A stretch of 64,000 nt of DNA, from NCBI RefSeq assembly GCF_004146235.1, contig NZ_SELO01000011.1:1-64000 (forward strand), written 5' to 3'. This document shows, in pieces, positions 27,118 to 45,158 of the stretch. The notes below the pieces were generated by a model that was not told the origin of the DNA, did no database searches, and worked only from the letters and a program-made list of their open reading frames with translations. Made by a program: the position numbers and the translations under genes. The DNA comes from Tropicimonas sp. IMCC6043. Its GTDB lineage: Bacteria; Pseudomonadota; Alphaproteobacteria; Rhodobacterales; Rhodobacteraceae. Each line of letters starts with the position of its first letter. The stretch's first letter is position 1.

Positions 27118-27158
27118 GTCTTTCTCCCTTTGGTGCCGATTATGTGAATCCCGTCGCC

Positions 27159-29962: not shown

Positions 29963-29997
29963 GACCAACCCGTCCTCCATGATTGGAGGTCACCATA

Positions 29998-31315: not shown

Positions 31316-31329
31316 TTGTCCGAGATCAA
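31316..31329. promoter_or_regulatory. FNR/FnrL-like site
   Basis: TTGTC-CGAG-ATCAA matches the FNR consensus TTGAT-N4-ATCAA at 8 of 10 positions, with one perfect half-site. Low-oxygen control would suit an iron-sulfur-rich complex, but an 8/10 match in an AT-rich stretch can occur by chance. Confidence 0.3.
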
Positions 31330-31470: not shown

Positions 31471-31968
31471 ATGAGCGAAGCGTTCGCAAACCGGAAACTC
31501 TTCTTCCTGACGCTGTTCTTATGGATACTGCTGAACGGCACGCTGGCGCTCGACGTTTTCGCGGTTGGCGTCGTCGTGGCGGCCGCCATCGCCTTCTTTT
31601 TCGGCAGCAGCCTGTCCTTCCTGTCGGGCTACCGACTCACGCTGGCCTCCGCGCGCGCGACGCTGGGATATATCGGCTACTTCCTTGTCGAACTGGCCAA
31701 GGCGAATCTGTCGGTCGCCCGCGTCGTGCTCGACCCCGCCCTTCCCGTGGTGCCCGCCATCGTCAAGGTCCGCACCCGGCTCAAGAGCCCGGTCGCGCGG
31801 CTGCTGCTGGCCAACTCGATCACCCTGACCCCCGGCACCCTCACCGTCGAGATGACTGGCGAGTGGCTCTACGTCCATTGGGTGGTCGCCAAGACAACCG
31901 ACACTCACGCCGCGACCGAAGCGATCGTGGCGGGGTTCGAGAAATACCTGGAGGTCATGTATGACTGA
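31471..31968 (+). CDS. MrpE/MnhE-like subunit (MbxA position)
   Basis: A 165-residue membrane protein of the MrpE family. Two or three hydrophobic segments at the N-terminus are followed by the conserved soluble part (LLANSITLTPGTLTVEMTGEWLYVHWV). In Mrp antiporters and in archaeal Mbh/Mbx complexes this subunit belongs to the sodium/proton module. GGAGGA lies four bases before ATG31471. First gene of a run of 13 overlapping or near-contiguous genes; overlaps the next by 8 bases. Confidence 0.92.
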   Translation: MSEAFANRKLFFLTLFLWILLNGTLALDVFAVGVVVAAAIAFFFGSSLSFLSGYRLTLASARATLGYIGYFLVELAKANLSVARVVLDPALPVVPAIVKVRTRLKSPVARLLLANSITLTPGTLTVEMTGEWLYVHWVVAKTTDTHAATEAIVAGFEKYLEVMYD

Positions 31969-32221
31969 TGCGCTCCTGCTTCCCGCCGCCATCGCGGCGC
32001 TTGCGCTGGTGCTGTCCTTCTGGCGCTTCATCGCTGGCCCGCATGCCGTCGATCGAGTCGTCGCGTTCGACGGGCTCACCCTGATCGCGATTTCCGGACT
32101 GGTGATGGCCGCCCTGGTCTCCGGCCGCGGCATCTATCTCGACGTGGCGCTGATCTATGCGCTGCTGTCCTTCCTCGGCGTGATCGTCGCGTCGCGCTAT
32201 CTCGAAGGAGGCGAAGAATGA
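31961..32221 (+). CDS. MrpF/MnhF-like subunit (MbxB position)
   Basis: An 86-residue protein with three transmembrane segments. FIAGPHAVDRVVAFDGLTLI is the MrpF hallmark (GPxxxDRxxAxD). Part of the sodium/proton translocation module. Coupled to the next gene by a four-base ATGA overlap. Confidence 0.92.
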   Translation: MTDALLLPAAIAALALVLSFWRFIAGPHAVDRVVAFDGLTLIAISGLVMAALVSGRGIYLDVALIYALLSFLGVIVASRYLEGGEE

Positions 32222-32571
32222 CCCTGCTCGCGCCCCTCGGAATCCTGGTGATGACCCTGGGCACCGTCTTTCTCGCCCTGGCCGGCCTCGGTCTCTTCCG
32301 GATGCCCGACACTTACACGCGCATCCAGGCCGGCACCAAGGCGACCACGCTCGGCATGCTGCTGATGCTCGCCGGGGCCGCGCTGATCGCACCCGCCTGG
32401 ACCGTCAAGCTCGGGCTGATTGCGCTCTTTCTGATGTTCACCAACCCGCTTTCCTCGCAGGTGCTCGCCCGCGCCGCACATCGCGCCGGCGTACCGGCGA
32501 CCGAGCGGACCTCGGCCGACGCGCTGGCCGAAGATGCCGCCGACATGGCGGGCGGGGAGGGCGCGGCATGA
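32218..32571 (+). CDS. MrpG/MnhG-like subunit (MbxC position)
   Basis: A 117-residue protein with three transmembrane segments. GLGLFRMPDTYTRIQAGTKATTLG is split here as GLFRMPDTYTRIQAGTK and TTLGMLL, the conserved MrpG core. The C-terminal 25 residues are polar and alanine-rich. ATGA overlap with the next gene. Confidence 0.92.
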   Translation: MTLLAPLGILVMTLGTVFLALAGLGLFRMPDTYTRIQAGTKATTLGMLLMLAGAALIAPAWTVKLGLIALFLMFTNPLSSQVLARAAHRAGVPATERTSADALAEDAADMAGGEGAA

Positions 32572-32822
32572 GCGTTCTGATGCTGGGCCTTGCCATTGCC
32601 CTCGCGCTGTCGATGGTCGCCGCCGCCGCAGTGGCGCTGATCACCCGCTCGACCGTGATCGCGGTGCTGGCGGCGGGGCTTGTGAGCCTCTTCGCCTCGA
32701 TCTTCTTCGTCGTCCTCGCCGCGCCCGACGTGGCGATGACCGAGGCCGCGATCGGCTCGGGCCTCACCACGTTCCTCTTCTTCTTCACCATGGGCCGGAT
32801 CCGGCGGGAGGGTGGAAAATGA
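32568..32822 (+). CDS. MbhD/MbxD-like subunit (DUF4040)
   Basis: An 84-residue membrane protein with three hydrophobic segments. LAAPDVAMTEAAIGSGLTTF is the DUF4040 signature found in MrpA C-termini and as the separate MbhD/MbxD subunit of archaeal respiratory complexes. A separate copy, instead of fusion to MrpA, marks an Mbh/Mbx-type organisation. Overlaps the next gene by four bases. Confidence 0.9.
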   Translation: MSVLMLGLAIALALSMVAAAAVALITRSTVIAVLAAGLVSLFASIFFVVLAAPDVAMTEAAIGSGLTTFLFFFTMGRIRREGGK

Positions 32823-33520
32823 TCCGACATGTCGTCGTCGCCCTGCTTGTCGCGCTCCTCGGCATCGCCTTCTGGACGCTGACCGCCGGCTACCTTCCCG
32901 ATGCCGAGTTGAACCGCACCGCCGCCTACTACGCGGCACATGCCCAGGACGAGGTCGGAGCGCCGAACATCGTCACCGGCATCATCGTCACATGGCGCGG
33001 GCTCGACACGCTGGGCGAGGTCACGGTGCTGTTTCTGACCTCAGCGGTTATCGCGCTCGTGCTCACGCAATCGAAGACACCGGCTGGCGCCACCGGAGCA
33101 GGCTTCCTGCCGTCGGGCGAGTTGCTGACCACCGGAACGCGGATGATCGTGCCATTGATCGTCCTGCTCGGAGCCTATGTCATCATGAACGGCCACCTGA
33201 CGCCGGGCGGCGGCTTCCAGGGCGGCGCGATCCTCGCCTCGGGGGCGTTGCTCACGCTGCTCGCAGAGCCGACGCGCCGGTTCGGCCACAGCGTCATCGC
33301 GCGGGTCGAGAGCGCCTCGGGCCTCACCTACGTGCTCGTCGGCCTAGCCGGCATGATGATCGCGGGCGGCTTCCTCGACAACGGGATCCTGCCGCTCGGC
33401 CGCTTCGGCGCGATGCTCTCGGCCGGGGCGATCCCGCTCATCTCGGTGCTGATCGGGCTCAAGGTCGGGGCGGAATTCTCCTCGATCCTCGAATCCCTGC
33501 ATGAAACGGAGGACGCGTGA
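32819..33520 (+). CDS. Fused MbhE-MrpB subunit (MbxE/F position)
   Basis: A 233-residue membrane protein combining two modules. Residues about 1-85 match MbhE (IIVTWRGLDTLGEVTVLF). Residues about 95-233 match MrpB/MnhB (TRMIVPLIVLLGAYVIMNGH; TPGGGFQGGAILASGA). The modules are separate genes in some Mbh/Mbx operons and part of the MrpA C-terminus plus MrpB in true Mrp. GGTGG precedes ATG32819. Belongs to the ion-translocating arm. Confidence 0.88.
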   Translation: MIRHVVVALLVALLGIAFWTLTAGYLPDAELNRTAAYYAAHAQDEVGAPNIVTGIIVTWRGLDTLGEVTVLFLTSAVIALVLTQSKTPAGATGAGFLPSGELLTTGTRMIVPLIVLLGAYVIMNGHLTPGGGFQGGAILASGALLTLLAEPTRRFGHSVIARVESASGLTYVLVGLAGMMIAGGFLDNGILPLGRFGAMLSAGAIPLISVLIGLKVGAEFSSILESLHETEDA

Positions 33521-33876
33521 TGGCCCAGATTGCCCTCGCAACCGGTTTCGTCCTGATCCTCGCGGGTCTCTACGGCGCGCTGACCAACCGTGACATCCTG
33601 CGCATGATCGTGGCCTTCACGATCGCCGACACCGGCGTCAACATCGTGCTCGTCGCCGTGGGCTACCTGCCCGGGCGCACCGCGCCGATCCTCGACGCCG
33701 CGGTGCCGGTGGCCGAGGCCGGCCAGCGGATCATCGACCCCGTGCCGCAGGCGCTGGTGCTCACCGCAATCGTCATCGGCCTCGGCATCACCGCGCTGAT
33801 GCTCGCCTATGCCTATCGCCTCTTCCGGCTGCGCCACAGCCTCGACATCTCGACCTTCACGGAGCTGAAATGGTAA
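33520..33876 (+). CDS. MrpC/NuoK-like subunit (MbxG position)
   Basis: A 118-residue protein with three transmembrane helices, homologous to NuoK/MrpC. LTNRDILRMIVAFTIADTGVNIVLVAVG corresponds to the conserved second helix (shown here as LRMIVAFTIADTGVN), and ALVLTAIVIGLGITALMLA to the third. It bridges pump subunits in related complexes. Start ATG33520 shares a base with the preceding stop; its end overlaps the large pump gene by 7 bases. Confidence 0.9.
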   Translation: MAQIALATGFVLILAGLYGALTNRDILRMIVAFTIADTGVNIVLVAVGYLPGRTAPILDAAVPVAEAGQRIIDPVPQALVLTAIVIGLGITALMLAYAYRLFRLRHSLDISTFTELKW

Positions 33877-36800
33877 GCCCGGTCCTCATCCTCGCCATCG
33901 GCCTCGGCACGGCATTCGCCCTGGGGCTTCTCTCGCAGGCTCGCAAGAGCTTCCTCTTCCTCGTCACGCTCGCAGCCCTGGCGCTGATGGCGGCGATCAG
34001 CCTCGGCTGGGTCGTGGCGCTCGCCACCGGCGCGGCCATGACGGCCGAGATCCACACCGCCGGCGTCGCGCCGCCCTTTGCGATCAACCTCCGGGTCGGC
34101 CTGGCCGAGGCGGCTCTGCTGGCGACGATCTCTCTCGCGGGCCTCTTCTCCGCGCTCTCGATGCGCGAGCCGCTCCTGCGGCTCGGCCGCGGCGCCATGG
34201 CAGTGCTACTGGTTCTGGTCATGGCGATCTCCGGCCTCGTCATGACGCGCGACCTCTTCAACCTCTTCGTTTTCATCGAGCTCATCGCCATCGCCACGGC
34301 CGGCGTCGTGCTGCTCTCGCAGGACCAGCGCGCGATCTGCGCCGGGTTCAAATATCTGGTGGTGAGCCAGATCATCGCCATCCTGATGCTGATCGGCATC
34401 ATCTTCACCTACCATGCCACCGGCTCGCTCAATATCGACGACATCGTCGCGACGCCCGTGGCCTTCCACGGCGCGGCGCTCGCGATCTTCCTGCTGCTGA
34501 TCGCGCTCGTGGTGGAGCTGAAGCCCTTCCCGGCGAACGGCTGGGCGCTCGACATCTACACCAGCGCGCATCCCGGCTTCTCCGCCCTGTTCTCGGCGGC
34601 CACCGGCTCCGCGGCGCTCTTCGCCGTGGACAAAGTCGCGACCTATGCAGGGGACGCCTGGTTGCCGCTCCTGACCGGCATCGGCCTCCTGAGCTTCGTC
34701 GGCTCCAATATCGTCGCGCTCCGACAAGAGAACGACCGGCGTCTGCTTGGCTATTCCTCGGTTGGCCAGCTCGGCCTCGTGCTCGCCGTGATCGGCCAGC
34801 GTGACGTGCTCGGCGACGCCTATCTCTATATCGCCGGCGGCCTGATCCTCTCGCATGCCGTCGCCAAGGCCGGGCTCTTCTGGATGTCCGCCATCGTGCG
34901 CGGACGGACGCTCACCGACTGGGCCGCGATCCGCGCCCGCGCGCCGATGGTTCTGGCCTTTGCCACCTTCATCGCCATGCTGGTCGGCCTGCCGCCCTTC
35001 CCCGGCTTCTATGCCAAGTGGGACCTCGCGCAGGCGCTTGTCGCCGCGGGGCGCCTGCCGATCCTGTCGCTGATCCTCCTCGGCGTGCTCATCGAGTCCG
35101 CCTATCTCTTCCGCTGGTTCGGCTATGCCATCAAGCGCGAGGCGGTCGAGAAGGGCCTCCTGGCCAACACTGTCGATTGCGGCATCACGCTGGCCGCCGT
35201 CGCGGGCGGCTGGGCGCTCGGCTGGATCTGGGGCGTGGCCCATGGCGAGTTCAACGTGCTGGCGACTCTGCCGGTGCTGGCCGTGGTTGCTTTCCTTCTG
35301 CTCGAACCGCTTCCTGCGAAGGTCAAGAACGTACTGGCCATTGCAGCGCTTCTCGGCTGGTTTGCGATGGTCGTCGGCGGATACGATCCCATGCGGCTGA
35401 TCTTCGCTGCGGTGATGATCCCGGGCGGCGCTGTCATCCTCATCGCCTCCTTCACCGAGACGGGGCGGCGGATCGGCTTCTATCCCTCCGCGATGGCGAT
35501 GTATGCCGGCCTCGCGCTGCTGCTCGAAGCGACGACCTTCTTCGAGTTCTTCGCGGCCTGGGAAATCATGACGCTGGGCTCCTACTTCCTGATCCTCAGG
35601 GGACGGATGTCCGAGCCGCACGCGCTGAGCTACATGCTCTTCTCGCTCGGCGGCGCCTTTGCACTGCTGGCGGGATTCGCGATCGCCTCGGGTGGCGTGC
35701 AGCCCTTCCCGCTCGACCAGCTCGGTACGGTTGCAGCCGACCTCGCGCCCTATGTCTTCGTTCTGCTCGCCGTCGGCTTTATGACCAAGACAGCGGCCAT
35801 GGGCCTGCATATCTGGCTGCCGGGCGCCCACGCCGAGGCGGAGACGGACGTCTCGCCGATGGTCTCCGGCATCTTGCTGAAGGCCGGGCTCTTTGGTCTC
35901 TTCCTGATGCTGATGCAGCTTGGCCGGCAAAGCCTCTGGGGCGTCGACCTCACCTATGTGCTGGTCTGGATCGGCGCAATCTCGGCCTTCCTCGGCGCGG
36001 TTCTGGCGATCTTCCAGGAGGACGCCAAGCGGCTACTGGCCTACAGCTCGATCAGCCAGATGGGCTATGCGCTCTTCGGCATCGCGCTGATGAACCACCT
36101 CGGCTGGCTCATGGCGATGATGTTCGTCATCAACCACTACGTCTACAAGTCGATGCTCTTCCTGGCCGTGGGCGGCGTCTACAAGCGCACCCACACCAAG
36201 CTGATGTACAAGATGGGCGGGTTGATCACGCTTATGCCCTTCACCTTCGTTTCCGTGCTGGTGGGGATCATCGCCATGTCCGGCGTGCCGCCGCTCTCGG
36301 GCTTTGGCGGACGATGGATCTTCTACAACGCGATCATGGATGCCGGCCTGCGCCTGCCGCTGATCCTGATCTTCATGGCCGGTCCCATCGGCTTCCTCTA
36401 CCTCTTCCGGCTGATCCACACGATCTTCCTCGGCCAGCTCAAGGACCCGCACCGGAAGCTCAAGGAGGCGCCCGCCTGGCTGGTGGCGCCGCAGATGATC
36501 TTCGTGGCCTTCCTGATCGGCTTTGCCGTGCTGCCCGGCATGGCGCTGCAAAAGGTGGACGGCTACATCGGCTCGATCTTCGGCGACCAGCCGCTGGTCT
36601 GGTCCGGCCGTGCCATCGCCTCCGAGTTCGGCTACTGGAACCCGGTCGCGATCATGGTGGTGATCATCGTGGTCTTCGTCTCGGTCTTCCTGATCCTGCT
36701 GGCCAAGAACCATGACGCCCAGAAGGTGAAGCAGTTCAACATCGTCTTCTCCGCCGAGCGGCCCTACCGCCCCGAGACGACGCATTTCGCGTGGAACTTC

Positions 36801-36998
36801 TTCGCCCCCTACCGCAAGGCAATGGGCTTTCTCGAGACGCCGGTGGTCAGCACCTTCTGGGGCGGTGTGACCGACGGCATCAACGGCGTGGGCGACTTTA
36901 CCCGCCGCTTCTACAACGGCAACGGCCAGAGCTACGCGATCCACGTCGTGCTCTTCGTCGTCGCCGTCTACCTGATCGCCATGGGAGGCGTCGCATGA
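33870..36998 (+). CDS. Fused double antiporter-like pump subunit (MbxH-MbxH' type)
   Basis: A 1042-residue membrane protein containing two complete NuoL/M/N-MrpD-type pump domains in tandem. The first (about 1-490) has Glu137 (FVFIELIA), Lys218 (VVELKPFPANGW) and Lys333 (SHAVAKAGLFW). The second (about 500-930) has Glu565 (AAWEIMTLG), Lys640 (FMTKTAAMGLHIW) and His756/Lys760 (INHYVYKSM). These are the helix-5 Glu and helix-7/8/12 Lys/His of proton channels. A C-terminal tail with further helices extends to the end. In archaeal mbx the two pumps are separate adjacent genes; here no stop or frameshift separates them. Overlaps the NuoH-like gene by four bases. Confidence 0.93.
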   Translation: MVSPVLILAIGLGTAFALGLLSQARKSFLFLVTLAALALMAAISLGWVVALATGAAMTAEIHTAGVAPPFAINLRVGLAEAALLATISLAGLFSALSMREPLLRLGRGAMAVLLVLVMAISGLVMTRDLFNLFVFIELIAIATAGVVLLSQDQRAICAGFKYLVVSQIIAILMLIGIIFTYHATGSLNIDDIVATPVAFHGAALAIFLLLIALVVELKPFPANGWALDIYTSAHPGFSALFSAATGSAALFAVDKVATYAGDAWLPLLTGIGLLSFVGSNIVALRQENDRRLLGYSSVGQLGLVLAVIGQRDVLGDAYLYIAGGLILSHAVAKAGLFWMSAIVRGRTLTDWAAIRARAPMVLAFATFIAMLVGLPPFPGFYAKWDLAQALVAAGRLPILSLILLGVLIESAYLFRWFGYAIKREAVEKGLLANTVDCGITLAAVAGGWALGWIWGVAHGEFNVLATLPVLAVVAFLLLEPLPAKVKNVLAIAALLGWFAMVVGGYDPMRLIFAAVMIPGGAVILIASFTETGRRIGFYPSAMAMYAGLALLLEATTFFEFFAAWEIMTLGSYFLILRGRMSEPHALSYMLFSLGGAFALLAGFAIASGGVQPFPLDQLGTVAADLAPYVFVLLAVGFMTKTAAMGLHIWLPGAHAEAETDVSPMVSGILLKAGLFGLFLMLMQLGRQSLWGVDLTYVLVWIGAISAFLGAVLAIFQEDAKRLLAYSSISQMGYALFGIALMNHLGWLMAMMFVINHYVYKSMLFLAVGGVYKRTHTKLMYKMGGLITLMPFTFVSVLVGIIAMSGVPPLSGFGGRWIFYNAIMDAGLRLPLILIFMAGPIGFLYLFRLIHTIFLGQLKDPHRKLKEAPAWLVAPQMIFVAFLIGFAVLPGMALQKVDGYIGSIFGDQPLVWSGRAIASEFGYWNPVAIMVVIIVVFVSVFLILLAKNHDAQKVKQFNIVFSAERPYRPETTHFAWNFFAPYRKAMGFLETPVVSTFWGGVTDGINGVGDFTRRFYNGNGQSYAIHVVLFVVAVYLIAMGGVA

Positions 36999-37900
36999 CC
37001 TTCGAGTGGATCCAAGTTCCCTACGCGCTCGCCACGCTGTTCATCATCCTCAACTACGGGATGCTGATGACGGCGGTGGTGCGCAAGCTCGCCGCGCGGG
37101 TCGGCGGGCGGCCGGGCATCCCGGTCTGGCAGAACTACATCGACCTGGTGAAGAACTTCGCGCTGCGCTCGAAGATCAACCACGGGGTCATGTATTACCT
37201 AGGGCCGGTCTTCCGGCTTACCGGCGGGATCGGCCTCATCCTCTTCGTGCCGACGATCTACGGATCGAGCTGGGCGCAGAACTTCTCCTTCTCGGGAGAC
37301 CTGATCCTGGCGCTCTACTTCATCTTCTTCGGCACTCTGGGCATGGCGCTCGGGGCCGGCGAGAGCGGGCATCCGCACTCTGCCATCGGCGTCTCGCGCG
37401 GGCTGGCGCAGGTGACGGCGGCGGAACTGCCGATGGCGCTCGCCGTCTTCGCCATCGCGCTGCAATACCAGACGCTGTCGATCACCGGCATCGTCGAGGC
37501 GCAGCAGGGCGGGCTCTTCCACTGGACGCTCTTCACTAACCCGCTCGCGGTCTTCGCGGCGATGTTCGCCTATGTCGGCACGATGATGCGCTCGCCGTTC
37601 GACGTGGTGCTGGCGCCGCAGGAAATCCCGATCGGCCCGCCGACCGAATACCACTCGGCCTATCTCGCGCTGATGCAGACCAACCGCGTGATCTTCCCCA
37701 TCGCCAAGACGATCATCTACATGAACATCTTCTTCGGTGGCGCGACCACCTGGGCGGAATTCGCGGTCAAGGTCTTCCTGCTCTACATGATCCCGGCCGT
37801 GATCGGCGTGGTCCACCCGCGGTTCCGGGTCGAGCAATCCATCCGCTTCTTCCTCAAATGGGGCCTGCCCGTGGGCATCCTCGCCATCCTGACGGTGTGA
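36995..37900 (+). CDS. NuoH/MbhM-like membrane-anchor subunit (MbxM position)
   Basis: A 301-residue membrane protein of the NuoH/HycD family with about eight helices. GRPGIPVWQNYIDLVKNF and RSPFDVVLAPQEIPIGPPTE are the family signatures, the latter forming the acidic loop facing the peripheral arm. In complex I this subunit links the redox arm to the pumps and forms most of the quinone chamber. In Mbh and Mbx it performs the same linkage without a quinone. Starts within the stop of the pump gene. Confidence 0.93.
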   Translation: MTFEWIQVPYALATLFIILNYGMLMTAVVRKLAARVGGRPGIPVWQNYIDLVKNFALRSKINHGVMYYLGPVFRLTGGIGLILFVPTIYGSSWAQNFSFSGDLILALYFIFFGTLGMALGAGESGHPHSAIGVSRGLAQVTAAELPMALAVFAIALQYQTLSITGIVEAQQGGLFHWTLFTNPLAVFAAMFAYVGTMMRSPFDVVLAPQEIPIGPPTEYHSAYLALMQTNRVIFPIAKTIIYMNIFFGGATTWAEFAVKVFLLYMIPAVIGVVHPRFRVEQSIRFFLKWGLPVGILAILTV

Positions 37901-37903
37901 GCC

Positions 37904-38596
37904 ATGAAAGACGTTGACGACAAGTTCCTGAAGAACACCGAGAAAGAGTTCCCGCTGCGCGAGGAACTCCGCCCCCGCAAGGTCACGACACCGGACGGTC
38001 AGGAGATCGAGATCGAGCCGCTGAAGGACTATTTCTGCGAGGCGGCGCCGAAGGTCCATCCCAAGGCCTACCTGCCGATCATCGAGGATTTCTACAACTG
38101 GGCGCGGGCCAACTCGCTCTGGATCCTCGGCTTCGGCACCGGCTGCGGGGCGATCGAGATGCGGCCGCTAATGACCCCGCGCTTCGACGCCTACCGCTAC
38201 GGCATCCAGTGGCGCCCGACACCCCGGCAGGCGAACCTGCTGATGATCTCGGGCTATCTCTCGGTCAAGACGCTCAAGCGCGCGATCCGCGCCTACGAGC
38301 AGATGCAGGGCCCGAAATACGTCGTCGGCCTCGGCTCCTGCACGATCAACGGCGGCATGTACTGGGACAGCTACAACACGATCAAGCGGCTCGACCAGTA
38401 TCTGCCGGTCGACCTCTACATCGCCGGCTGCATGCCGCGCCCGGAGGCGCTGCTCGCCGGGTTCATGGAGCTGAAGAAGCAGATCAAGGCCGGGAAATGC
38501 GAGGGCGCCAACAAATACGCCGAGAATTTCGCGACCTACAAGGCGAACCAGAAGTCCGTGATCAAGGACTGGGACATGCCGGATTACAACTGGTGA
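37904..38596 (+). CDS. NuoB-like iron-sulfur subunit with three cluster cysteines (MbxJ position)
   Basis: A 230-residue peripheral subunit homologous to NuoB and the small subunit of group 4 hydrogenases. Cluster cysteines are Cys81 (GTGCGAIEM), Cys146 (GLGSCTINGG) and Cys176 (AGCMPRPE). Complex I has two adjacent cysteines at the first site; here the second is Gly82. The single 4Fe-4S cluster would therefore have one non-cysteine coordination site, as described for the site-differentiated cluster of Pyrococcus MBS. There is also an N-terminal extension of about 40 residues with Cys45. It lies three bases after the NuoH-like gene. Confidence 0.92.
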   Translation: MKDVDDKFLKNTEKEFPLREELRPRKVTTPDGQEIEIEPLKDYFCEAAPKVHPKAYLPIIEDFYNWARANSLWILGFGTGCGAIEMRPLMTPRFDAYRYGIQWRPTPRQANLLMISGYLSVKTLKRAIRAYEQMQGPKYVVGLGSCTINGGMYWDSYNTIKRLDQYLPVDLYIAGCMPRPEALLAGFMELKKQIKAGKCEGANKYAENFATYKANQKSVIKDWDMPDYNW

Positions 38597-38601
38597 CGGA
38601 T

Positions 38602-39132
38602 ATGCGCGACATCCACAAGAGACTGAAGAAACTCCATCACCTGGGCAAGCTCGAGCCGCAACGGCCCGGCCTCGCCTTCCTGACCTTGCCGCGCGAGAAC
38701 TTGCGCGGGCTGCTGCTCGACCTCCGCGACAAGGAGGGGTTCACGCATCTGGTGCTGCTGACCGCGGTGGACTGGATGGAGGAGGGCCTCTTCCAGCTCA
38801 CCTACATGATGAACAACCGCGCCGCGGACATGACGCTCGGCATCCGCGTGATGCTCGACCGCGAGGCTGCGACGGGCGACAGCATCCACGACCTCTGGCC
38901 GACCGCCGCCACCTATCAGCGGGAGTTGAAGGAGATGTTCGGCATCGACTTCCCCGGCTCGCCGCGGGTGGACGACGAGTTCATCCTCGAGGGCTGGACC
39001 GATCTGCCGCCCTACCGGCGCGACTTCGACAGCCTCGCCTATTCGCAGCAGACCTATGCCGAGCGCCCGGGCCGTGTGACCCACGATCCGCGCGAATACA
39101 TGAAATCGAAACTCTATCCGGACGGGGTGTGA
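38602..39132 (+). CDS. NuoC-like subunit (MbxK position)
   Basis: A 176-residue subunit of the NuoC/30-kDa family. It carries the family core LWPTAATYQRELKEMFGIDF and the proline-rich tail (LPPYRRDF). It has no cofactor and braces the peripheral arm next to the NuoD-like subunit. A GTG at 38593 overlapping the previous stop (GTGA) is an equally good start and would add three residues. Only one base separates it from the next gene. Confidence 0.9.
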   Translation: MRDIHKRLKKLHHLGKLEPQRPGLAFLTLPRENLRGLLLDLRDKEGFTHLVLLTAVDWMEEGLFQLTYMMNNRAADMTLGIRVMLDREAATGDSIHDLWPTAATYQRELKEMFGIDFPGSPRVDDEFILEGWTDLPPYRRDFDSLAYSQQTYAERPGRVTHDPREYMKSKLYPDGV

Positions 39133-39133
39133 G

Positions 39134-40312
39134 ATGTTCAACTTCAAACCCGACCGCAGCCAGTACCCTGCCATCGGCGAGGACGGCAAGCTCGAGATCG
39201 ACCTCGAGACGGGCAAGTTCCTCAAGCTCTGGCAGGGACCGAACCACCCCGGGATCACCGGAAACATGTCGGTCGAACTGACGGTCTGCGGCGACGAGGT
39301 GGTCGAAGGCAAGACCCATGTCGGCTACCTGCACCGCGGCTTCGAGAAGCTGATGGAACGGCGGACCTTCATCCAGGTCTTTCCGATCGTCTGCCGGGTC
39401 TGCGTGCCCGAGCCCGATTTCAACGAGTATTGCTACGCCGCAGCCGTCGAGGATCTCGCCGGCATCGAGGTGCCGGAATATGCCAACTGGATGCGCACCC
39501 TGATCCTCGAGATGGGCCGCTTCAACAGCTACATGATGTTCCTCGGCGGCATCGGCGGCGCGCTCGGCCTCGGCATCGGCGGTCAGTGGATGACCTATGT
39601 GCGCGACCTGATGCTCGACCGGTTCGAGGAACTGACCGGCGCCCGGATCTACCACATGTTCATCCTGCCGGGCGGCGTGCGCGGGCATCTGCCCGAAGGA
39701 TTCGAAGGGCGTATGGAGGAGGTGCTCAGCACCGCCGAACGGTACCTGGCCGACATGGACAGAGTCATGTTCTCCAACTCTGTCTTCAAGACCCGGACCA
39801 AAGGCGTGGGCTACATCGATCCCGCGCTCTTCGAACCGTATGGCGTGACCGGCCCCAATGCGCGTGCCGGCGGTGTGGCCAAGGACGTTCGCAAGGACAG
39901 CCCCTACCTGGTCTATGACCAGCTCGATTTCGAGGTGGCCACGGCGACGGGAAGCGACATCTGGGCCCGCGCCAATGTGCGCCGCGAGGACGTACAGACC
40001 TCGATCGACCTGATCCGGCAGATCCTGAAGAAGATGCCGAAGACCGGCCCGGCGATGGCCAAGATCCCCAATGTCCTGCACTGGAAGATCCCGCGCGGCG
40101 AGACCTACATCAAGGGCGAGTGCTCGCGCGGCGAATACGGCTACTACCTCGTCACGGACGGCACGGGCTATCCGCGCCGGATCAACGTGCGGGGTCCGAG
40201 CTACACACATGCGATGGCGCTGCTGGAACATCTCATTCCGGGAACGAACATCTCCGACGTCGCAGCGCTGATGGTGTCGCTGCACACCTATCCCCCCGAG
40301 ATCGAGAGGTAA
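39134..40312 (+). CDS. NuoD/hydrogenase-large-subunit-like protein without complete NiFe ligands (MbxL position)
   Basis: A 392-residue homologue of NuoD and of the large subunit of group 4 NiFe hydrogenases. Shared motifs include GPNHPGITGNM, VGYLHRGFEKLMERR and GECSRGEYGYYL. The N-terminal ligand pair survives as Cys87-x-x-Cys90 (VCRVC). The C-terminal DPCxxC pair of hydrogenases is absent: the protein ends VSLHTYPPEIER with no cysteine. A NiFe centre is therefore not expected. No endopeptidase gene for hydrogenase maturation is nearby. The active site may be the neighbouring NuoB-like cluster, as in MBS. Confidence 0.93.
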   Translation: MFNFKPDRSQYPAIGEDGKLEIDLETGKFLKLWQGPNHPGITGNMSVELTVCGDEVVEGKTHVGYLHRGFEKLMERRTFIQVFPIVCRVCVPEPDFNEYCYAAAVEDLAGIEVPEYANWMRTLILEMGRFNSYMMFLGGIGGALGLGIGGQWMTYVRDLMLDRFEELTGARIYHMFILPGGVRGHLPEGFEGRMEEVLSTAERYLADMDRVMFSNSVFKTRTKGVGYIDPALFEPYGVTGPNARAGGVAKDVRKDSPYLVYDQLDFEVATATGSDIWARANVRREDVQTSIDLIRQILKKMPKTGPAMAKIPNVLHWKIPRGETYIKGECSRGEYGYYLVTDGTGYPRRINVRGPSYTHAMALLEHLIPGTNISDVAALMVSLHTYPPEIER

Positions 40313-40315
40313 GCC

Positions 40316-42118
40316 ATGGGCCTGCGCGAAGTCCTCACCCCGTTCACCGTCTGGAAACACGTCTTTGACGAGACGGTCACGATCAAGAACCCCATCGGCC
40401 GCCCCGGTGCCGACCGCTACCGCGGCTTCCACCAGAACGACATGGAGAAATGCATCGGCTGCGGCACCTGCGAGACGATCTGCCAGAACGCGGCGATCGA
40501 CATGGTGCCGGTCGAGGGGTTCGACGCCCAGAAGGGCGATTCCGGCCTCCGGCCGCAGATCGACTACGGCCGCTGCTGCTGGTGCGCGCTCTGCGTCGAC
40601 GTCTGCATGACCGGCTCGCTGACCATGTCGAACGAATACACCTGGGTGGACACCGACCCCGACAAGTTCCGCTTCATCCCCGGCCTCGAGGGTGAGTGGA
40701 AGGATGACGAGGCCGGCTACGAGCGCGAGGGAGACCGTGCGCTCTCCGGCATCGAGCGGATCCACATGGAGGAGATGGAGCCGGAGGCGCGGATCGACAA
40801 TTTCGACGAGATCGTCGCCGGCTACAGCCGCGAAGAGGCGATCCTCGAAGCCGACCGCTGCGTCGAATGCGGGCTCTGCGTCGCCACCTGCCCGGCCCAC
40901 ATGTCGATCCCCGACTACATCGCCGCGGTGCGCGACCAGGATTACGATCGGGGCCTAAAGCTTCTCTACGAGACCAACCCGTTCTCCGAAGTCTGCGGAC
41001 GCGTCTGCACCCACAAATGCGAGACCTCCTGCGCCGCGCTGCACGAGGGCGACCCGATCGCCATTCGCTGGCTCAAGCGTCATATCGTCGACGAGGTGCC
41101 CTATGAGCGGCGCATCGAACTGGTCGGCAAGCCCAACGTGGCGCCCACCGGTCGCAAGGTGGCGATCATCGGCGGCGGCCCGGCCGGCCTGACGGCGGCG
41201 TACGATCTCGCCCGCGACGGCCATGGCGTCGTGGTCTTCGAGGCGCAGGCCAAGGCGGGCGGCATGACCCGCTACGGCATCCCCGAATACCGCCTGCCCT
41301 ATGACGCGCTCGACCGCGATATCGGCGTGATCGAGGCAATGGGTGTGGAGATCCGCACCAATTGCCGCATCGGCCGGGACGTGACGATGGAGGCGCTCCG
41401 CGAGGAATATGACGCGGTCATCCTCGCCATCGGCCTGCATATGGGCCGCTCGACCCGGGTTCCCGGCACTGAAGGCCCAGGAGTCGAGAAGGCCGTGGAC
41501 CTGCTGCGCCGGATCACCGACGGCGAGGAGGTGCCGGTGCCCGAGAAGATCGTGGTGGTCGGCGGCGGCAACGTGGCGATGGACATCGCCCGATCGATGG
41601 CGCGGCTCCAGAAGGTCAAATACGGCAAGGTCGGTATGACGCTGACTGCGCTCGAGGATATCGACCATTTCCTCGCCGATGCCGAGGAGATCAAGGAGAG
41701 CCGCGAGGAAGGCGTGGAGATCTTCGACGCCCGCGGCCCGCAGGAAGTGCTGCGCGACGAGGCCGGCAACGTGACCGGGCTTCGGACCTGGCGTGTGACC
41801 TCGATCTTCGACGACCAGGGCCGGTTCGCGCCCGCCTATGACGAGGCCGACGAGCGGATCCACGAGGGCACGATGGTGATCGAGGCCATCGGTCAGGCCG
41901 CCGACACCTCGCTCCTCGGCGAAGAACTCACCGAGGCTCTGGAATGGAACCGCGGCCGGATCAAGATCGACGACACCTTCCGCACCTCCGAGCCCTGGCT
42001 TTTCGCCGCGGGCGACGCGGTGAAGGGTCCCGATGTCATCAACGCGGTGGCGGACGGCCACACGGTCGCCGCCTCGGTCAGCGCGGTGATGTTTGCCAAG
42101 GGGGAGGCGGCGCGATGA
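40316..42118 (+). CDS. Fusion of NuoI-like ferredoxin with GltD/NfnB-type NAD(P)H flavoprotein (MbxN position)
   Basis: A 600-residue fusion. Residues 1-110 are a NuoI/MbxN-like polyferredoxin with two 4Fe-4S motifs (Cys46-49-52-56 and Cys87-90-93-97). Residues about 150-270 are the GltD-type iron-sulfur domain (Cys182-185-188-192; Cys227, 231, 235, 239). An FAD Rossmann fold follows (GGGPAGLTAA at about 286) and an NAD(P) Rossmann fold (VVGGGNVAMDIARSM), ending in the FAD-binding AAGDAVKGPDVIN. The continuous chain would wire NAD(P)H directly to the peripheral arm. In Pyrococcus the mbx ferredoxin subunit has no such partner attached. Overlaps the ferritin-like gene by four bases. Confidence 0.93.
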   Translation: MGLREVLTPFTVWKHVFDETVTIKNPIGRPGADRYRGFHQNDMEKCIGCGTCETICQNAAIDMVPVEGFDAQKGDSGLRPQIDYGRCCWCALCVDVCMTGSLTMSNEYTWVDTDPDKFRFIPGLEGEWKDDEAGYEREGDRALSGIERIHMEEMEPEARIDNFDEIVAGYSREEAILEADRCVECGLCVATCPAHMSIPDYIAAVRDQDYDRGLKLLYETNPFSEVCGRVCTHKCETSCAALHEGDPIAIRWLKRHIVDEVPYERRIELVGKPNVAPTGRKVAIIGGGPAGLTAAYDLARDGHGVVVFEAQAKAGGMTRYGIPEYRLPYDALDRDIGVIEAMGVEIRTNCRIGRDVTMEALREEYDAVILAIGLHMGRSTRVPGTEGPGVEKAVDLLRRITDGEEVPVPEKIVVVGGGNVAMDIARSMARLQKVKYGKVGMTLTALEDIDHFLADAEEIKESREEGVEIFDARGPQEVLRDEAGNVTGLRTWRVTSIFDDQGRFAPAYDEADERIHEGTMVIEAIGQAADTSLLGEELTEALEWNRGRIKIDDTFRTSEPWLFAAGDAVKGPDVINAVADGHTVAASVSAVMFAKGEAAR

Positions 42119-42600
42119 GGACCGAAGCGCTCAGCAAGATGACCACCGTCGAGGAGGTGCTGGAGACGGTCGCCGAATTCGACCGCGAGGCGCATGGTTT
42201 CTATGTCGACCTGATTCCGAAAGTGTCGAAGAAGATCAGATACATCGTCGAGGAACTGGCGCGCGCCGAGCTTGACCACGTCATCAAGCTCTACGAGCTC
42301 TCGAAATCGAGCGACATCCGCGACCACCTACGGGACGCGATCCTGCGCCCCGAGGCGGACCGGCGGTTCTCCGACGCGATCCAGGCGCCGGAGCTGGGCG
42401 ACGACCCTGACGACCAGGAAGTCCTGCAATACGCGCTCGCGCGCCAGCAGATCGCGATCGAGGAATATTCCGAGCTTGCCGCCAATACCCCGCCGGGGCC
42501 GATGCACGAGGTGTTCAGCTACCTCGCCAACGAGGAGAGCAAGCACAAGACGGACCTCGAGGCGCTCTATTACGAAGTGGTGCATTCCGGCGGGGTCTGA
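42115..42600 (+). CDS. Ferritin-like diiron protein (rubrerythrin type without rubredoxin domain)
   Basis: A 161-residue all-helical protein. The diiron ligands can be read as Glu21 or Glu25, Glu52-x-x-His55 (AELDH), Glu117 (IEEYSE) and Glu141-x-x-His144 (ESKH), the ferritin-like four-helix pattern. No rubredoxin cysteines are present. Related proteins reduce peroxide or bind iron. Because its start overlaps the flavoprotein-fusion gene, it is made together with the complex and may protect it from oxygen or exchange electrons with it. Last gene of the operon. Confidence 0.82.
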   Translation: MRTEALSKMTTVEEVLETVAEFDREAHGFYVDLIPKVSKKIRYIVEELARAELDHVIKLYELSKSSDIRDHLRDAILRPEADRRFSDAIQAPELGDDPDDQEVLQYALARQQIAIEEYSELAANTPPGPMHEVFSYLANEESKHKTDLEALYYEVVHSGGV

Positions 42601-42613
42601 ACCCGCGCCGGAT

Positions 42614-42665
42614 GCCGGGCGGCGCTTTGGGGTGGGGCGGCGACCCGGCCGCTCAGCCGCCCGGC
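42614..42665. terminator. Inverted repeat between the respiratory operon and the DUF2950 gene
   Basis: GCCGGGCGGC at 42614-42623 and GCCGCCCGGC at 42656-42665 are perfect 10-base arms with a 32-base loop between two convergent genes. Likely a bidirectional transcription barrier; there is no T-tract. Confidence 0.4.
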
Positions 42666-43582
42666 AACTCGTCGAGCCGGGCCCAGCCCGCCGCCGGATC
42701 CGGGTCCAGCGTCTCGATCTCGAAGGCGATGTCGAGCGTCTCTTCGCCGAGATCGGCCTGCCAGATGATGCCGGCCTCGTTGATCAGGAAGCTGTTAATG
42801 CCGCTCTCGCCATAGTCCGCCGGAACGGCGAGCAGGGCGTGACCGGCCACCATATTGTCGCCGGCCATGTAGGACATCGCGCCGCCCGGAGCGTTCTCTC
42901 CCTGGCCGGTCAGGATCCGGTAGTAATAGCCGAAATAGGGCTCGTGTTCTGCCTCCGTGGCGTCGGGCGCGAGGAAGCCGTCGAGGCTCGCGCGGGCCGT
43001 GCGGTCACCGGCCGGGCTGTCCGGCCCGACCCAGTAGAGGCCGCTCCGCATGCCAGGCGGTGAGATGATGCTCGAGGCGAACTCCATCACGCCGTCACCG
43101 TCATGATCGGTCTGCCGGAACTCCCGCTGGATCTCGAGATAGGTCTCCATGAGCTCGAGCACGTCAAGCTCGTTGCGACCGATTTCGCGGGCTGCGATTT
43201 CCACAACGCCGGCTTCGATGTCGAAGCTCCAGCCCGCCTCGCTTCGGGCGAGCGGCACCGGGAATGGCCAGTCGTCGGCGCCAAGCTCGATGACCACGCT
43301 GCCATCTTCCTGCGGCACGAAACGGTAACCCTCGCGCCAATCCGCGTAGAGAGCCTCTAGAGCGCCGGTGTCAATCTCGCCGTCGGAGACCTCGACCAGT
43401 GCTTCCGCACCGGGCCCGAGGGCGGCACCTATTGCTGCGGGATCGCCGGCGGCGAGGCCGGGCAGCAGGGCGTCGAGCGCATCCTGAGGTGTGGCGTAGA
43501 GCGGCGCCTCCTGGGCGGCAAGCGGCGTCGCGACCAAGGTGAGGGCGAGGGCGGCTGCGAATACGGGGGACATCTGGCGCAT
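42653..43582 (-). CDS. DUF2950-family secreted protein
   Basis: A 309-residue exported protein with a signal peptide (VFAAALALTLVATPLAAQ). The DUF2950 signature is clear: FGYYYRILTGQGENAPGG, then NMVAGHALLAVPADYGESG and NSFLINEAGIIWQADLG. Function is unknown. It follows the DUF3300 gene by seven bases; the same two families are paired in many bacteria, which suggests a joint periplasmic role. AAGGT lies ten bases before ATG43582. Confidence 0.9.
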   Translation of the reverse strand: MRQMSPVFAAALALTLVATPLAAQEAPLYATPQDALDALLPGLAAGDPAAIGAALGPGAEALVEVSDGEIDTGALEALYADWREGYRFVPQEDGSVVIELGADDWPFPVPLARSEAGWSFDIEAGVVEIAAREIGRNELDVLELMETYLEIQREFRQTDHDGDGVMEFASSIISPPGMRSGLYWVGPDSPAGDRTARASLDGFLAPDATEAEHEPYFGYYYRILTGQGENAPGGAMSYMAGDNMVAGHALLAVPADYGESGINSFLINEAGIIWQADLGEETLDIAFEIETLDPDPAAGWARLDELPGG

Positions 43583-43589
43583 CGTCTCG

Positions 43590-45158
43590 TTACCTTCTTG
43601 CTTTCACGCGACCACCACCCGCCTTGTGTCCTCGAGCCGCCGCGGCCTTTGTCCGGCTGCCGGAGGATTGCTTGGCGATGGACGGGACGGATTTTCGAAC
43701 CTGCTGCGCCTGTGGCAGCTTCTGCGGGGCCGGGCGGCTGATATTCGGTTTTGCAGCGGGTTTCGCCTTGGTGGAGGGCCTGGTGACCGGCAGCGAGCTT
43801 TCGGTCCGGGCCTTGACCTTGTCGAGTTCCCGGTTGGCGCCGGCGGTCGGGCGGGATGCACCGACCGGCCGGTTTCCGGCGCGGCTGGCAAGCGCCCCTG
43901 CCGCGCCGCCTGCGACCGCAGCGGTGGCGGCGTTGCCGAGGCCGGGGCGGGCGATGTCCGCTGCCCCGGTCTGCTGCGAGAGCTTGGCGCGCAGAGCGTC
44001 GGTGCCGCCGATCTGCGGAAGCTCTGCGGGCCGGGTCGCCGGTTTGGCGCCGCCCTCCCGCCGAGTCTCGAGCTGCGAGCGGGCCGCGTCGCGGCGGCCC
44101 GGCTCGGCCGTCCAGCCGCCCTTGCCGCTTTCTTCCAGCCGGGCACGCAGGTCGTTGTCGCCCACCTGGATGTGACCGCGGCTGATTCCCGCGCGGATCT
44201 CGTCGCGCGAGATGTCTCCGGTCTGGATTCGCTTGCGCAGCGTTTCGTCTCCGACCCGGATGTCTCCGGCCTCGATCCGGTTCCGGATCTCGTCCCGGTC
44301 GATGTCGATCCGGTTGCTGATATTGACGTTGCCGTCGACGTCGATGTCGATATCGGGGTCGCGATAGATCGGCCCGCCGCCCCAGCCGGCGCAGTTGCGA
44401 CACCCCCAGTAGTCGTTCCAGTCGTCGTCGTCATCGAAGATCTCGTCGATCAGCGCAAAGGTACCCCAGGTGATGAGACCGGCGGCAACGGCGTTTCCGG
44501 CGGTATAGGCCGGGTTGTAGACGGTCCGCGCATCGTATTGCGGGACATAGACGATCTCGGGATCGGCCGGCTGGACCACCACCGTGCTCGTCGCCGGGTC
44601 TTCGGTGACCACCTGCTGTTCGTTGGTAGCGAGCGCGCCGCTGTCGATGGCCTGCGCCCGCATCACCTGCACCGCATCCATCACGTCGTCGGACTGCGCC
44701 AGCATCGCGTCGCCGACCGTCTCGGTCCAGTCGATGTGGTCGGCCATCCGGTGCAGCACGTCCGGAAAGGCTTCGGCGAGGACGGCGACAGAGGGGTCGT
44801 AGCCCTCGGCCTCGATCAGCGGCTCCAGCGTGTCGGTCGCGGCGCCTTCGTTTTCGAGCAGGAGCCGATTCGCCTTCATCACCTGGTAGGGCTGCGTCGC
44901 GCCGACGAGGATCTGGATGAGCAGCGTGTCGGGGAAAAGCGCCACCGGCGCGACCAGGGTCTGAAGTTCGGCCGCGCTGAGGAGGTCGGGACCGGCGGGC
45001 GCACTGACGGGCGTTTCGCCCGCGGCATCGGCCTCAGGAACAGCGACCGGTTGTTCCGTGGCGCCGCCGACCTGGGCGCTGGCCGGGACCGATGAAAGCG
45101 CCGCGGCGAGGAGAAGGCCGGGAAAGGCGGGAAGACGGGCGGACCTAAAGACTGACAT
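43590..45158 (-). CDS. DUF3300-family secreted protein
   Basis: A 522-residue exported protein. After a leader (FPGLLLAAALSSVPASAQ) residues about 60-215 form the DUF3300 domain (LVAPVALFPDTLLIQILVGAT; PDVLHRMADHIDWTETVGDAM; IVYVPQYDARTVYNP). The remainder is low-complexity: short repeats of the type IRVGDETLRKRIQTGDI, then a basic Ala/Pro-rich tail ending in KVKARR. The tail may bind nucleic acid, cell wall or another polyanion. Function unknown. Upstream gap 45159-45280 holds its promoter. Confidence 0.88.
   Translation of the reverse strand: MSVFRSARLPAFPGLLLAAALSSVPASAQVGGATEQPVAVPEADAAGETPVSAPAGPDLLSAAELQTLVAPVALFPDTLLIQILVGATQPYQVMKANRLLLENEGAATDTLEPLIEAEGYDPSVAVLAEAFPDVLHRMADHIDWTETVGDAMLAQSDDVMDAVQVMRAQAIDSGALATNEQQVVTEDPATSTVVVQPADPEIVYVPQYDARTVYNPAYTAGNAVAAGLITWGTFALIDEIFDDDDDWNDYWGCRNCAGWGGGPIYRDPDIDIDVDGNVNISNRIDIDRDEIRNRIEAGDIRVGDETLRKRIQTGDISRDEIRAGISRGHIQVGDNDLRARLEESGKGGWTAEPGRRDAARSQLETRREGGAKPATRPAELPQIGGTDALRAKLSQQTGAADIARPGLGNAATAAVAGGAAGALASRAGNRPVGASRPTAGANRELDKVKARTESSLPVTRPSTKAKPAAKPNISRPAPQKLPQAQQVRKSVPSIAKQSSGSRTKAAAARGHKAGGGRVKARR

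Follow-up and report, generated by a model that had tools for sequence, protein, structure and literature searches.

What kind of respiratory complex is encoded by a run of 13 tightly packed genes in Tropicimonas sp. IMCC6043, and what would it do for its host? The genes form a cassette at 31471-42600 (+) of the window, by which we mean the whole 64,000-nucleotide stretch of DNA analysed (positions 1 to 64,000 of contig NZ_SELO01000011.1). A first-pass annotation had read them as a respiratory operon resembling mbx, which encodes the membrane-bound sulfane sulfur reductase (MBS) of Pyrococcus, in a Rhodobacterales-type host. Both parts of that reading are supported: trees of the NuoD- and NuoB-like subunits and tests of their residues side with MBS, and the cassette NuoD is 96% identical to that of Tropicimonas sediminicola. 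Judged from its predicted proteins, the cassette encodes a respiratory complex of the MBS/Mbx family. The reading of its function that we favour, and consider modestly probable, is an NADH-linked, ion-pumping sulfane-sulfur oxidoreductase that would be used at low oxygen, forward operation being the likelier direction. Statements taken from cited papers refer here and below to excerpts of those papers.

A complete set of MBS-type genes

The cassette consists of the following genes.

31471..31968 (+): MrpE/MnhE-like, MbsA type (PF01899 MNHE, E=3.9e-35; frame checked)
31961..32221 (+): MrpF-like, MbsB type (PF04066, E=1.6e-15)
32218..32571 (+): MrpG-like, MbsC type (PF03334, E=1.7e-23)
32568..32822 (+): MbhD/DUF4040, MbsD type (PF13244, E=9.9e-17)
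32819..33520 (+): fused MbhE-MrpB, MbsE type (PF20501 MbhE, E=2.4e-08; PF04039 MnhB, E=2e-22)
33520..33876 (+): MrpC/NuoK-like, MbsG type (PF00420 Oxidored_q2, E=1.1e-21)
33870..36998 (+): fused double pump of 1042 aa, roles of MbsH' and MbsH (two Proton_antipo_M stretches)
36995..37900 (+): NuoH/MbsM-like membrane anchor of the peripheral arm (PF00146 NADHdh, E=7.5e-45, longer open reading frame (ORF))
37904..38596 (+): NuoB/MbsJ-like, predicted proximal [4Fe-4S] cluster at C81, C146 and C176 (best PDB match MBS chain J)
38593..39132 (+): NuoC/MbsK-like, GTG start at 38593 (PF00329, E=3.2e-21, longer ORF)
39134..40312 (+): NuoD/MbsL-like, lacking the quinone His/Tyr (best PDB match MBS chain L; trees)
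40316..42118 (+): fusion of NuoI with a GltD/NfnB-type FAD protein (PRK13984/NF010590; Fer4_20 and Pyr_redox_2)
42115..42600 (+): ferritin-like (rubrerythrin-type) protein (PF02915, E=1.6e-07, longer ORF)

A check of frames, starts and stops bore out the 13 genes, their single strand and their order as first described, and showed how tightly they are packed: neighbouring genes overlap by 1-8 bases or lie 1-3 bases apart. All 13 reading frames are intact, and hidden Markov models (HMMs) from Pfam and NCBIfam gave each one a family. Every Mbx/MBS subunit has a counterpart in the set when compared with the MBS subunit list (PMC7684303), which makes it complete in its Mrp-derived membrane subunits, two pumps, NuoH-like anchor and J/K/L/N peripheral arm. 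The match to mbx gene order holds as well, mbxABCD..GHH' followed by M, J, K and L (PMC3608648) being the order found here. By HMM family, nuoE/F/G, NuoA and NuoJ are not among the 13 genes, as had been noted from the start; a genome-wide search for nuoE/F/G was not made.

The double pump joins a NuoN-type stretch (residues 3-419) to a NuoM-type stretch (residues 470-1035), and it is one ORF of >1000 aa in 58 of 61 related loci. E137, K218, E565 and K640, which we take to be the acid and lysine residues of the kind used by antiporter-like pumps in both halves, are kept in 58-59 of 59 aligned rows. Conservation counts, here as elsewhere, exclude incomplete and odd-length ORFs.

The peripheral arm sides with MBS

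Among proteins of solved structure, NuoB, NuoD and NuoH all match MBS best, by a wide margin. The closest PDB match of NuoB is MBS chain J (E=2e-60, against 5.7e-40 for the best complex I type and 3.8e-25 for the membrane-bound hydrogenase, MBH), that of NuoD is MBS chain L (E=1.3e-90, against 2.8e-60 for Thermus Nqo4 and 4.7e-34 for MBH), and that of NuoH is MBS chain M (6u8y_M, E=9.2e-36, the next best reaching 4e-12). In trees of 25 rows each, the cassette joins MBS with support of 99/97 for NuoD and 96/91 for NuoB, so neither subunit falls inside genuine complex I or the NiFe hydrogenases, the placements that had been named as contradicting an Mbx-like operon. Approximately unbiased (AU) tests, run on the NuoD data only, rejected grouping with complex I (p 0.023) and with hydrogenases (p 0.021). 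Both trees contain one archaeal MBS reference only, and long branches were flagged by the program; for these reasons we give residues more weight than trees.

Those residues can be read against the archaeal enzyme, in which the catalytic cluster is ligated by MbsJ C28, C93 and C123 only, C25 not being a ligand, and in which MbsL lacks the quinone residues H38/Y87 and retains two of the four NiFe cysteines, C85 and C385 (PMC7684303). Cassette NuoB has C81, C146 and C176 at the three ligand positions, invariant in 72/72 rows, and its position 78, the equivalent of MbsJ C25, is Gly in 68 rows, Ala in 4 and never Cys. The predicted three-cysteine proximal cluster thus matches the MBS pattern. An N-terminal extension of NuoB, outside the MbsJ alignment, carries a further cysteine, C45, likewise invariant (72/72), which could be a fourth ligand.

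In NuoD, T42 and V91 occupy the positions of Nqo4 H38 and Y87, and each is invariant (78/78 rows; alignment read by eye). C87, C90 and C100 are invariant in the same 78 rows; C90 corresponds to MbsL C85, and C87 makes with it a C87-x-x-C90 pair, while the position of MbsL C385 is taken by Tyr386, again in 78/78. By eye, the CGIC motif of the hydrogenase subunit HycE aligns to NuoD C90-V-P-E93 and its C-terminal CYSC to Y386-P-P-E389, so NuoD has a cysteine at just one (C90) of the four NiFe positions. With MBS-type ligands and losses on the one hand, and extra invariant cysteines and Tyr386 on the other, the predicted active chamber is MBS-like and not identical to that of MBS.

These residues also bear on the possibility that the complex pumps ions while passing electrons from NADH to quinone, as an additional enzyme of the complex I kind whose NADH module is simpler. 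Its fold modules are common to both kinds of enzyme, its electron entry looks NADH-like (see below) and a complex I NuoD is encoded elsewhere in the same genome, on contig C65; the replacement of the quinone His/Tyr by invariant T42/V91, the MBS cysteine pattern at the proximal cluster and the AU rejection of a complex I grouping all count against it, and we regard such a pump as improbable. Two further identities were considered and discarded: a variant of complex I because of residues, tree and the gene content of the cassette, and an [NiFe] hydrogenase because of residues and tree.

Electrons probably enter from NADH

The twelfth gene encodes a NuoI-flavoprotein fusion that scores 865 bits against PRK13984/NF010590, below the curated cut-off of 946. 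Its NuoI part, to which MBS chain N aligns (residues 7-111, E=3.7e-20), has two [4Fe-4S] motifs and its flavoprotein part has two more, and the 16 cysteines of these four cluster motifs are invariant in 73/73 rows. Such a subunit is a probable NAD(P)H entry or exit module. Where the nucleotide-binding domain of NfnB-like proteins reads YRR...EMPA, the cassette copy reads A-L-E-D, with E447 kept in 71/73 rows. When the second strand ends in an acid, the nucleotide used is generally NADH and not NADPH, and because an acid here replaces the YRR of NfnB, the complex is probably wired to NADH, rather than to ferredoxin or NADPH. No separate, flavin-free, ferredoxin-accepting MbsN occurs in the cassette, its NuoI being fused to the flavoprotein; we regard a separate MbsN as particular to the archaeal version and not as family-defining. 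Since the fusion looks NADH-linked, the cassette does not simply reproduce the archaeal enzyme, which is driven by ferredoxin. The fusion is not new in itself, as the same family occurs in Thermotoga maritima, the sole genome among 14 controls with a PRK13984 match, which lies above the cut-off.

Ferredoxin might nevertheless be a partner if the complex were an ion-pumping, Rnf-like ferredoxin:NAD+ oxidoreductase, with ferredoxin delivering electrons at NuoI and NAD+ being reduced at the flavoprotein. The peripheral arm of MBS does accept electrons from ferredoxin (PMC7684303), and Mbx was formerly called a ferredoxin:NAD(P) oxidoreductase (PMC4596419; PMC3608648). Such a scheme would leave the open proximal cluster and the chamber, the route to the pumps in MBS, without a job, even though many chamber positions, cysteines included, are invariant across 72 NuoB and 78 NuoD sequences. 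We consider this the least probable of the alternatives.

A sparse accessory trait of proteobacteria

We examined 80 of 166 confirmed loci in named genomes, many of them cut by contig ends; 75 of the 80 belong to Pseudomonadota by their record titles, and the other five are unranked, one of these being titled a gamma-proteobacterial symbiont. With the ferritin-like gene left aside, the genes found are collinear in 80/80 loci. All 12 of these other genes were found in 57 loci. Complete sets of 13 came from 54 loci, of which 51 keep the order seen in the window and 3 have the ferritin-like gene upstream. Collinearity on this scale argues that the cassette is not a chance arrangement. The same order was found in other Rhodobacterales, where it had been proposed to be sought, and it extends beyond them: the gene set is a sparse accessory trait of alpha-, beta-, gamma- and magnetococcal proteobacteria that have genes for sulfur oxidation, carriers including Celeribacter, Tropicimonas, Rhodobacter aestuarii, Magnetovibrio and Thiohalocapsa. 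It is rare: apart from the genome of the window, 4 of 248 Pseudomonadota and 1 of 197 members of the family carry it, and the sole other genome of the genus that was sampled (G007) lacks it.

Neighbouring genes were set aside as a clue to function. When the ORFs flanking the 80 loci were clustered, five clusters reached at least 5 loci (17, 12, 7, 5 and 5); their strands are mixed and their median distances are ~2-5 kb. By eye, no NuoE/F/G/A/J family is among these five. The two largest resemble, again by eye, an ABC-transporter ATPase and a PAS-type sensor.

A plasmid or other mobile-element origin was tried and rejected, as no cassette was seen in a plasmid collection. At the DNA level, 4 records of that collection matched, over 38-63 bases; NuoB gave 241 records, all below 60% identity, those annotated among the 40 listed being NADH-quinone oxidoreductases; and the flavoprotein gave 64 records, also all below 60%, the 12 listed being AegA-type or unannotated.

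Most carriers combine sulfur oxidation with carbon fixation genes

We compared four traits between 38 carriers and 40 non-carriers. The carriers, picked from the examined loci by genome quality, comprise 34 of the 80 loci minus L005, plus six genomes of the G series, with L023 and G289 merged and counted once on account of identical dsrA coordinates and scores; the non-carriers comprise 6 near relatives, 10 further Rhodobacteraceae and 24 genomes from the phylum sample. RuBisCO was counted at E<1e-100, which leaves weaker matches in the non-carriers G002, G240 and G198 uncounted as RuBisCO-like, and the tests take no account of phylogeny. Either soxB or dsrA, or both, occur in 38/38 carriers and 19/40 non-carriers; taken singly, soxB is found in 36/38 versus 12/40 and dsrA in 30/38 versus 9/40. 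In a sample of 198 genomes of the family, dsrA is present in 16, namely 2/2 carriers and 14/196 others (p 0.006). Within one small family, dsrA occurs in 5/5 genomes and the cassette in 1. In the genome from which the window comes, soxB, dsrA and RuBisCO are all present; its contigs C65 and C75 carry dsrA and the RuBisCO large subunit, and a weaker RuBisCO-like match lies on C79.

Nitrogen fixation as the purpose of the cassette was also considered and set aside, because the link to nifH (20/38 carriers versus 8/40, p 0.004) is weaker than those to soxB, dsrA and RuBisCO and the window's genome has no nifH match.

RuBisCO itself raises the main rival to our reading, that the complex runs in reverse, with proton- or sodium-motive force driving electrons from sulfide, persulfide or thiols to NAD+; the NADH so formed would feed CO2 fixation at a lower cost than NADH made from quinol by complex I running in reverse. 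The RuBisCO gene is found in 32/38 carriers versus 12/40 non-carriers, and among Rhodobacterales it is the sole one of the four traits that separates the two groups (10/12 versus 2/11, p 0.003). Against the rival, 6/38 carriers have no RuBisCO match. The window's genome holds cassette, dsrA and RuBisCO together, and G007, of the same genus, has soxB and none of the three. In the Riftia symbiont Endoriftia, a putative Mrp-Mbx complex shares co-expression neighbours with the reductive tricarboxylic acid (rTCA) cycle and none with the Calvin-Benson-Bassham (CBB) cycle (PMC11636981), so that this system speaks on both sides. Precedent is forward: the known MBS, of P. furiosus, works in that direction (PMC7684303), and elemental sulfur (S0) induces mbxA in T. 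maritima (PMC9431562). By our own estimate, S0/HS- lies well above NADH at millimolar or lower sulfide, and a reverse step would therefore need more than one ion per two electrons. We hold reverse operation to be a serious but unlikely account.

A related proposal, which we rate as somewhat more doubtful still, is that the complex is a reversible or backward-running MBS: a sulfur:NAD+ oxidoreductase, driven by proton-motive force, that makes NADH from sulfane or sulfide electrons while bypassing the quinone pool. Its site-differentiated [4Fe-4S] cluster would then lie beside NuoD C87-x-x-C90 and C100, possibly resembling the cluster/disulfide pair of ferredoxin:thioredoxin reductase.

A forward mechanism and what weighs against it

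The same redox estimate removes an objection to the NADH-driven forward reaction that we favour. We had entertained, and dropped, the view that forward NADH-driven pumping is thermodynamically impossible, because S0/HS- rises well above NADH at realistic sulfide. On this forward reading, NADH would bind at the GltD/NfnB-type flavoprotein end, and electrons would pass through FAD, two GltD-type clusters, two NuoI-type clusters and the three-cysteine proximal cluster to a sulfur compound in the chamber formed by NuoB, NuoD and NuoH. The sulfane-sulfur partner, which may be a polysulfide, a persulfide or a hydrophobic disulfide, would react at the site-differentiated [4Fe-4S] cluster in NuoB, and the redox step would be coupled through NuoH and adjoining loops to the two fused pumps and the Mrp-type module, presumably moving Na+ or H+. 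The most likely use would be at low oxygen in oxidizers of reduced sulfur, where NADH could be oxidized by reducing stored or newly formed zero-valent sulfur, conserving a little energy; more broadly, the complex may allow these bacteria to consume or build up sulfur stores during oxygen shortage.

Several observations weigh against an NADH-driven sulfur reductase of this kind. We found no activity reported for any proteobacterial member, and in Endoriftia the co-expression neighbours that the complex shares with the rTCA cycle set it apart from most sulfur-oxidation genes, which go with the CBB cycle (PMC11636981). Three invariant cysteines, NuoD C87 and C100 and NuoB C45, lack an equivalent in MBS, which means that the substrate or the ligands of the cluster may not be the same as in that enzyme. 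The NADH assignment rests on a single motif, and the flanking genes vary between loci. Among the traits, the enrichment of nifH means that the pattern may in part reflect a general low-oxygen lifestyle. Within Rhodobacterales the differences for soxB (12/12 versus 9/11) and dsrA (5/12 versus 1/11), like that for nifH (2/12 versus 0/11), are not significant, and 8/38 carriers lack dsrA, seven of these being Rhodobacterales.

A candidate low-oxygen switch upstream

One candidate regulatory site lies in front of the cassette.

31316..31329: FNR/CRP-family-like box TTGTCCGAGATCAA, ~155 bases upstream of the first start codon

We take the strict FNR consensus to be TTGA[TC]N4[AG]TCAA; the looser pattern was defined after the window had been seen, and both were compared with the rest of the same loci and with 1,000 shuffles of the upstream stretches. 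Within the 300 bases that precede the first gene, a strict box occurs in 6/57 loci, five of them among the 11 beta-proteobacterial loci; the expected numbers are 0.105 (rest of the loci) and 0.065 (shuffles, maximum 2). Loose boxes occur upstream in 23/57 loci (expected 1.28 from the rest of the loci and 1.17 from shuffles, maximum 6), including 15/15 Rhodobacterales, whose copies are not independent, and the box of the window is of this loose form. These candidate FNR-like boxes point to low-oxygen expression of the cassette without proving it. In the Rhodobacterales an AT-rich conserved stretch is also visible by eye ~28 bases downstream of the -155 box.

Elsewhere around the cassette, genes for DUF2950 and DUF3300 proteins adjoin it at 42653-45158 (-), and a transporter solute-binding protein and a GFO/IDH/MocA-type oxidoreductase at 25852-29980 (-) look unrelated.

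The ferritin-like partner

Where the contig continues past the flavoprotein gene, as it does in 73 loci, 68 have the last gene; 12 loci lack a detected copy, and 7 of these end with the contig. Among the remainder, L043, L054 and L056 (unclassified) cluster together in the NuoB tree and their contigs continue, and no copy was detected in L034 or L079 either. In three Chromatiales-type loci the gene lies upstream of the first subunit (L063:1458-1991, L076:1520-2041 and L080:1623-2141).

The predicted protein is mostly helical in an AlphaFold2 model with a predicted local distance difference test (pLDDT) score of 87.5. Foldseek searches with the model returned generic ferritin-like folds, none at E<=0.001 (best E 1.6e-3, template modelling score 0.69), the sequence search gave no close solved relative and no rubredoxin domain was matched. 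If the di-iron ligand pattern of rubrerythrins is, as we assume, E, ExxH, E, ExxH, the family of 66 rows follows it with E23 (60 rows) or D23 (5), E52-H55, E111 (63) and E141-H144, and the copy in the window has D23 and Q111 at ligand positions. This copy is 76-84% identical to those of Maritimibacter/Sinisalibacter, 71-84% to those of two Rhodobacterales metagenome-assembled genomes and 52-53% to those of Tropicimonas; because Tropicimonas is closest in NuoD and distant here, the ferritin-like gene has a history that differs from that of the rest. We infer that the protein probably shields an oxygen-labile open cluster or handles its iron.

Comparison with known systems

The kind of complex is already known, and the complex is not wholly new, as the Mrp-Mbx of Endoriftia and the 13-subunit MBX of T. 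maritima precede it. In the literature on Mbx/MBS outside archaea and on the fusion protein, the proteobacterial case appeared only in Endoriftia, whose Mrp-Mbx is listed as of unknown function and direction in the excerpt available (PMC11636981). We found no description of a proteobacterial variant that is NADH-wired, accompanied by a ferritin-like protein and equipped with extra cysteines, in a search that mostly left out subscription papers and in which earlier accounts of bacterial mbx genes may thus be missing; the excerpts of PMC5317093, PMC9304861, PMC10451490 and PMC2246101 contain nothing on the 13-gene cassette. A set of six betaproteobacterial genes that resemble Hyf subunits and Mbx modules, judged non-sulfur-reducing by its authors (PMC4053972), differs from the cassette.

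MBS has been proposed to link hydrogenases with complex I, and it was in a ferredoxin-using archaeal hyperthermophile that its structure and mechanism were worked out (PMC7684303). The cassette offers a mesophilic, apparently NADH-wired version in named isolates, with many homologues for structure-function work. It provides a candidate answer to how sulfur-storing bacteria might reduce sulfur in dark, anoxic conditions while conserving energy, and another to where sulfur autotrophs might obtain NADH. Its extra cysteines and co-inherited ferritin-like protein raise the question of how an open Fe-S site survives in oxygen-exposed lineages.

Complex I, whether encoded on the same genome's C65 or as E. 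coli Nuo, shares the homologous NuoB/C/D/H/I core and antiporter-like pumps; the cassette differs in having no NuoE/F/G/A/J among its 13 genes, other proximal ligands and no quinone His/Tyr. With MBH and formate hydrogenlyase (6cfw, 7z0s) it shares the large- and small-subunit and membrane-anchor families, whereas its NuoD keeps cysteine at one NiFe position of four (C90). Its flavoprotein resembles NfnB/GltD (4ylf, 6s6s) in the Fer4_20 and FAD/NAD(P) domains, with ~440 residues aligned, but sits behind NuoI and has A-L-E in place of YRR.

Three further systems are Mbx-type complexes. Endoriftia, a sulfur-oxidizing gammaproteobacterium with Sox and reverse Dsr (rDsr) systems, has a complex that we liken to the cassette by its description, from co-expression, and not by sequence (PMC11636981). 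The T. maritima MBX is a bacterial 13-subunit homologue of MBS (PMC9431562) from a genome that matches the NuoI-GltD fusion family; its host, unlike those described here, is a hyperthermophilic anaerobe, and its operon was compared by description only. The P. furiosus MBS/Mbx (6u8y; PMC7684303) is alike in its 13 subunit counterparts, three-cysteine cluster, Mrp-type antiporter module, loss of quinone residues and NiFe site, and arrangement of membrane genes before peripheral genes. The cassette departs from it in making the two pumps as one protein, fusing NuoI to a flavoprotein and attaching a ferritin-like gene, and in NuoD C87 and C100, Y386 in place of C385, and a NuoB extension with C45.

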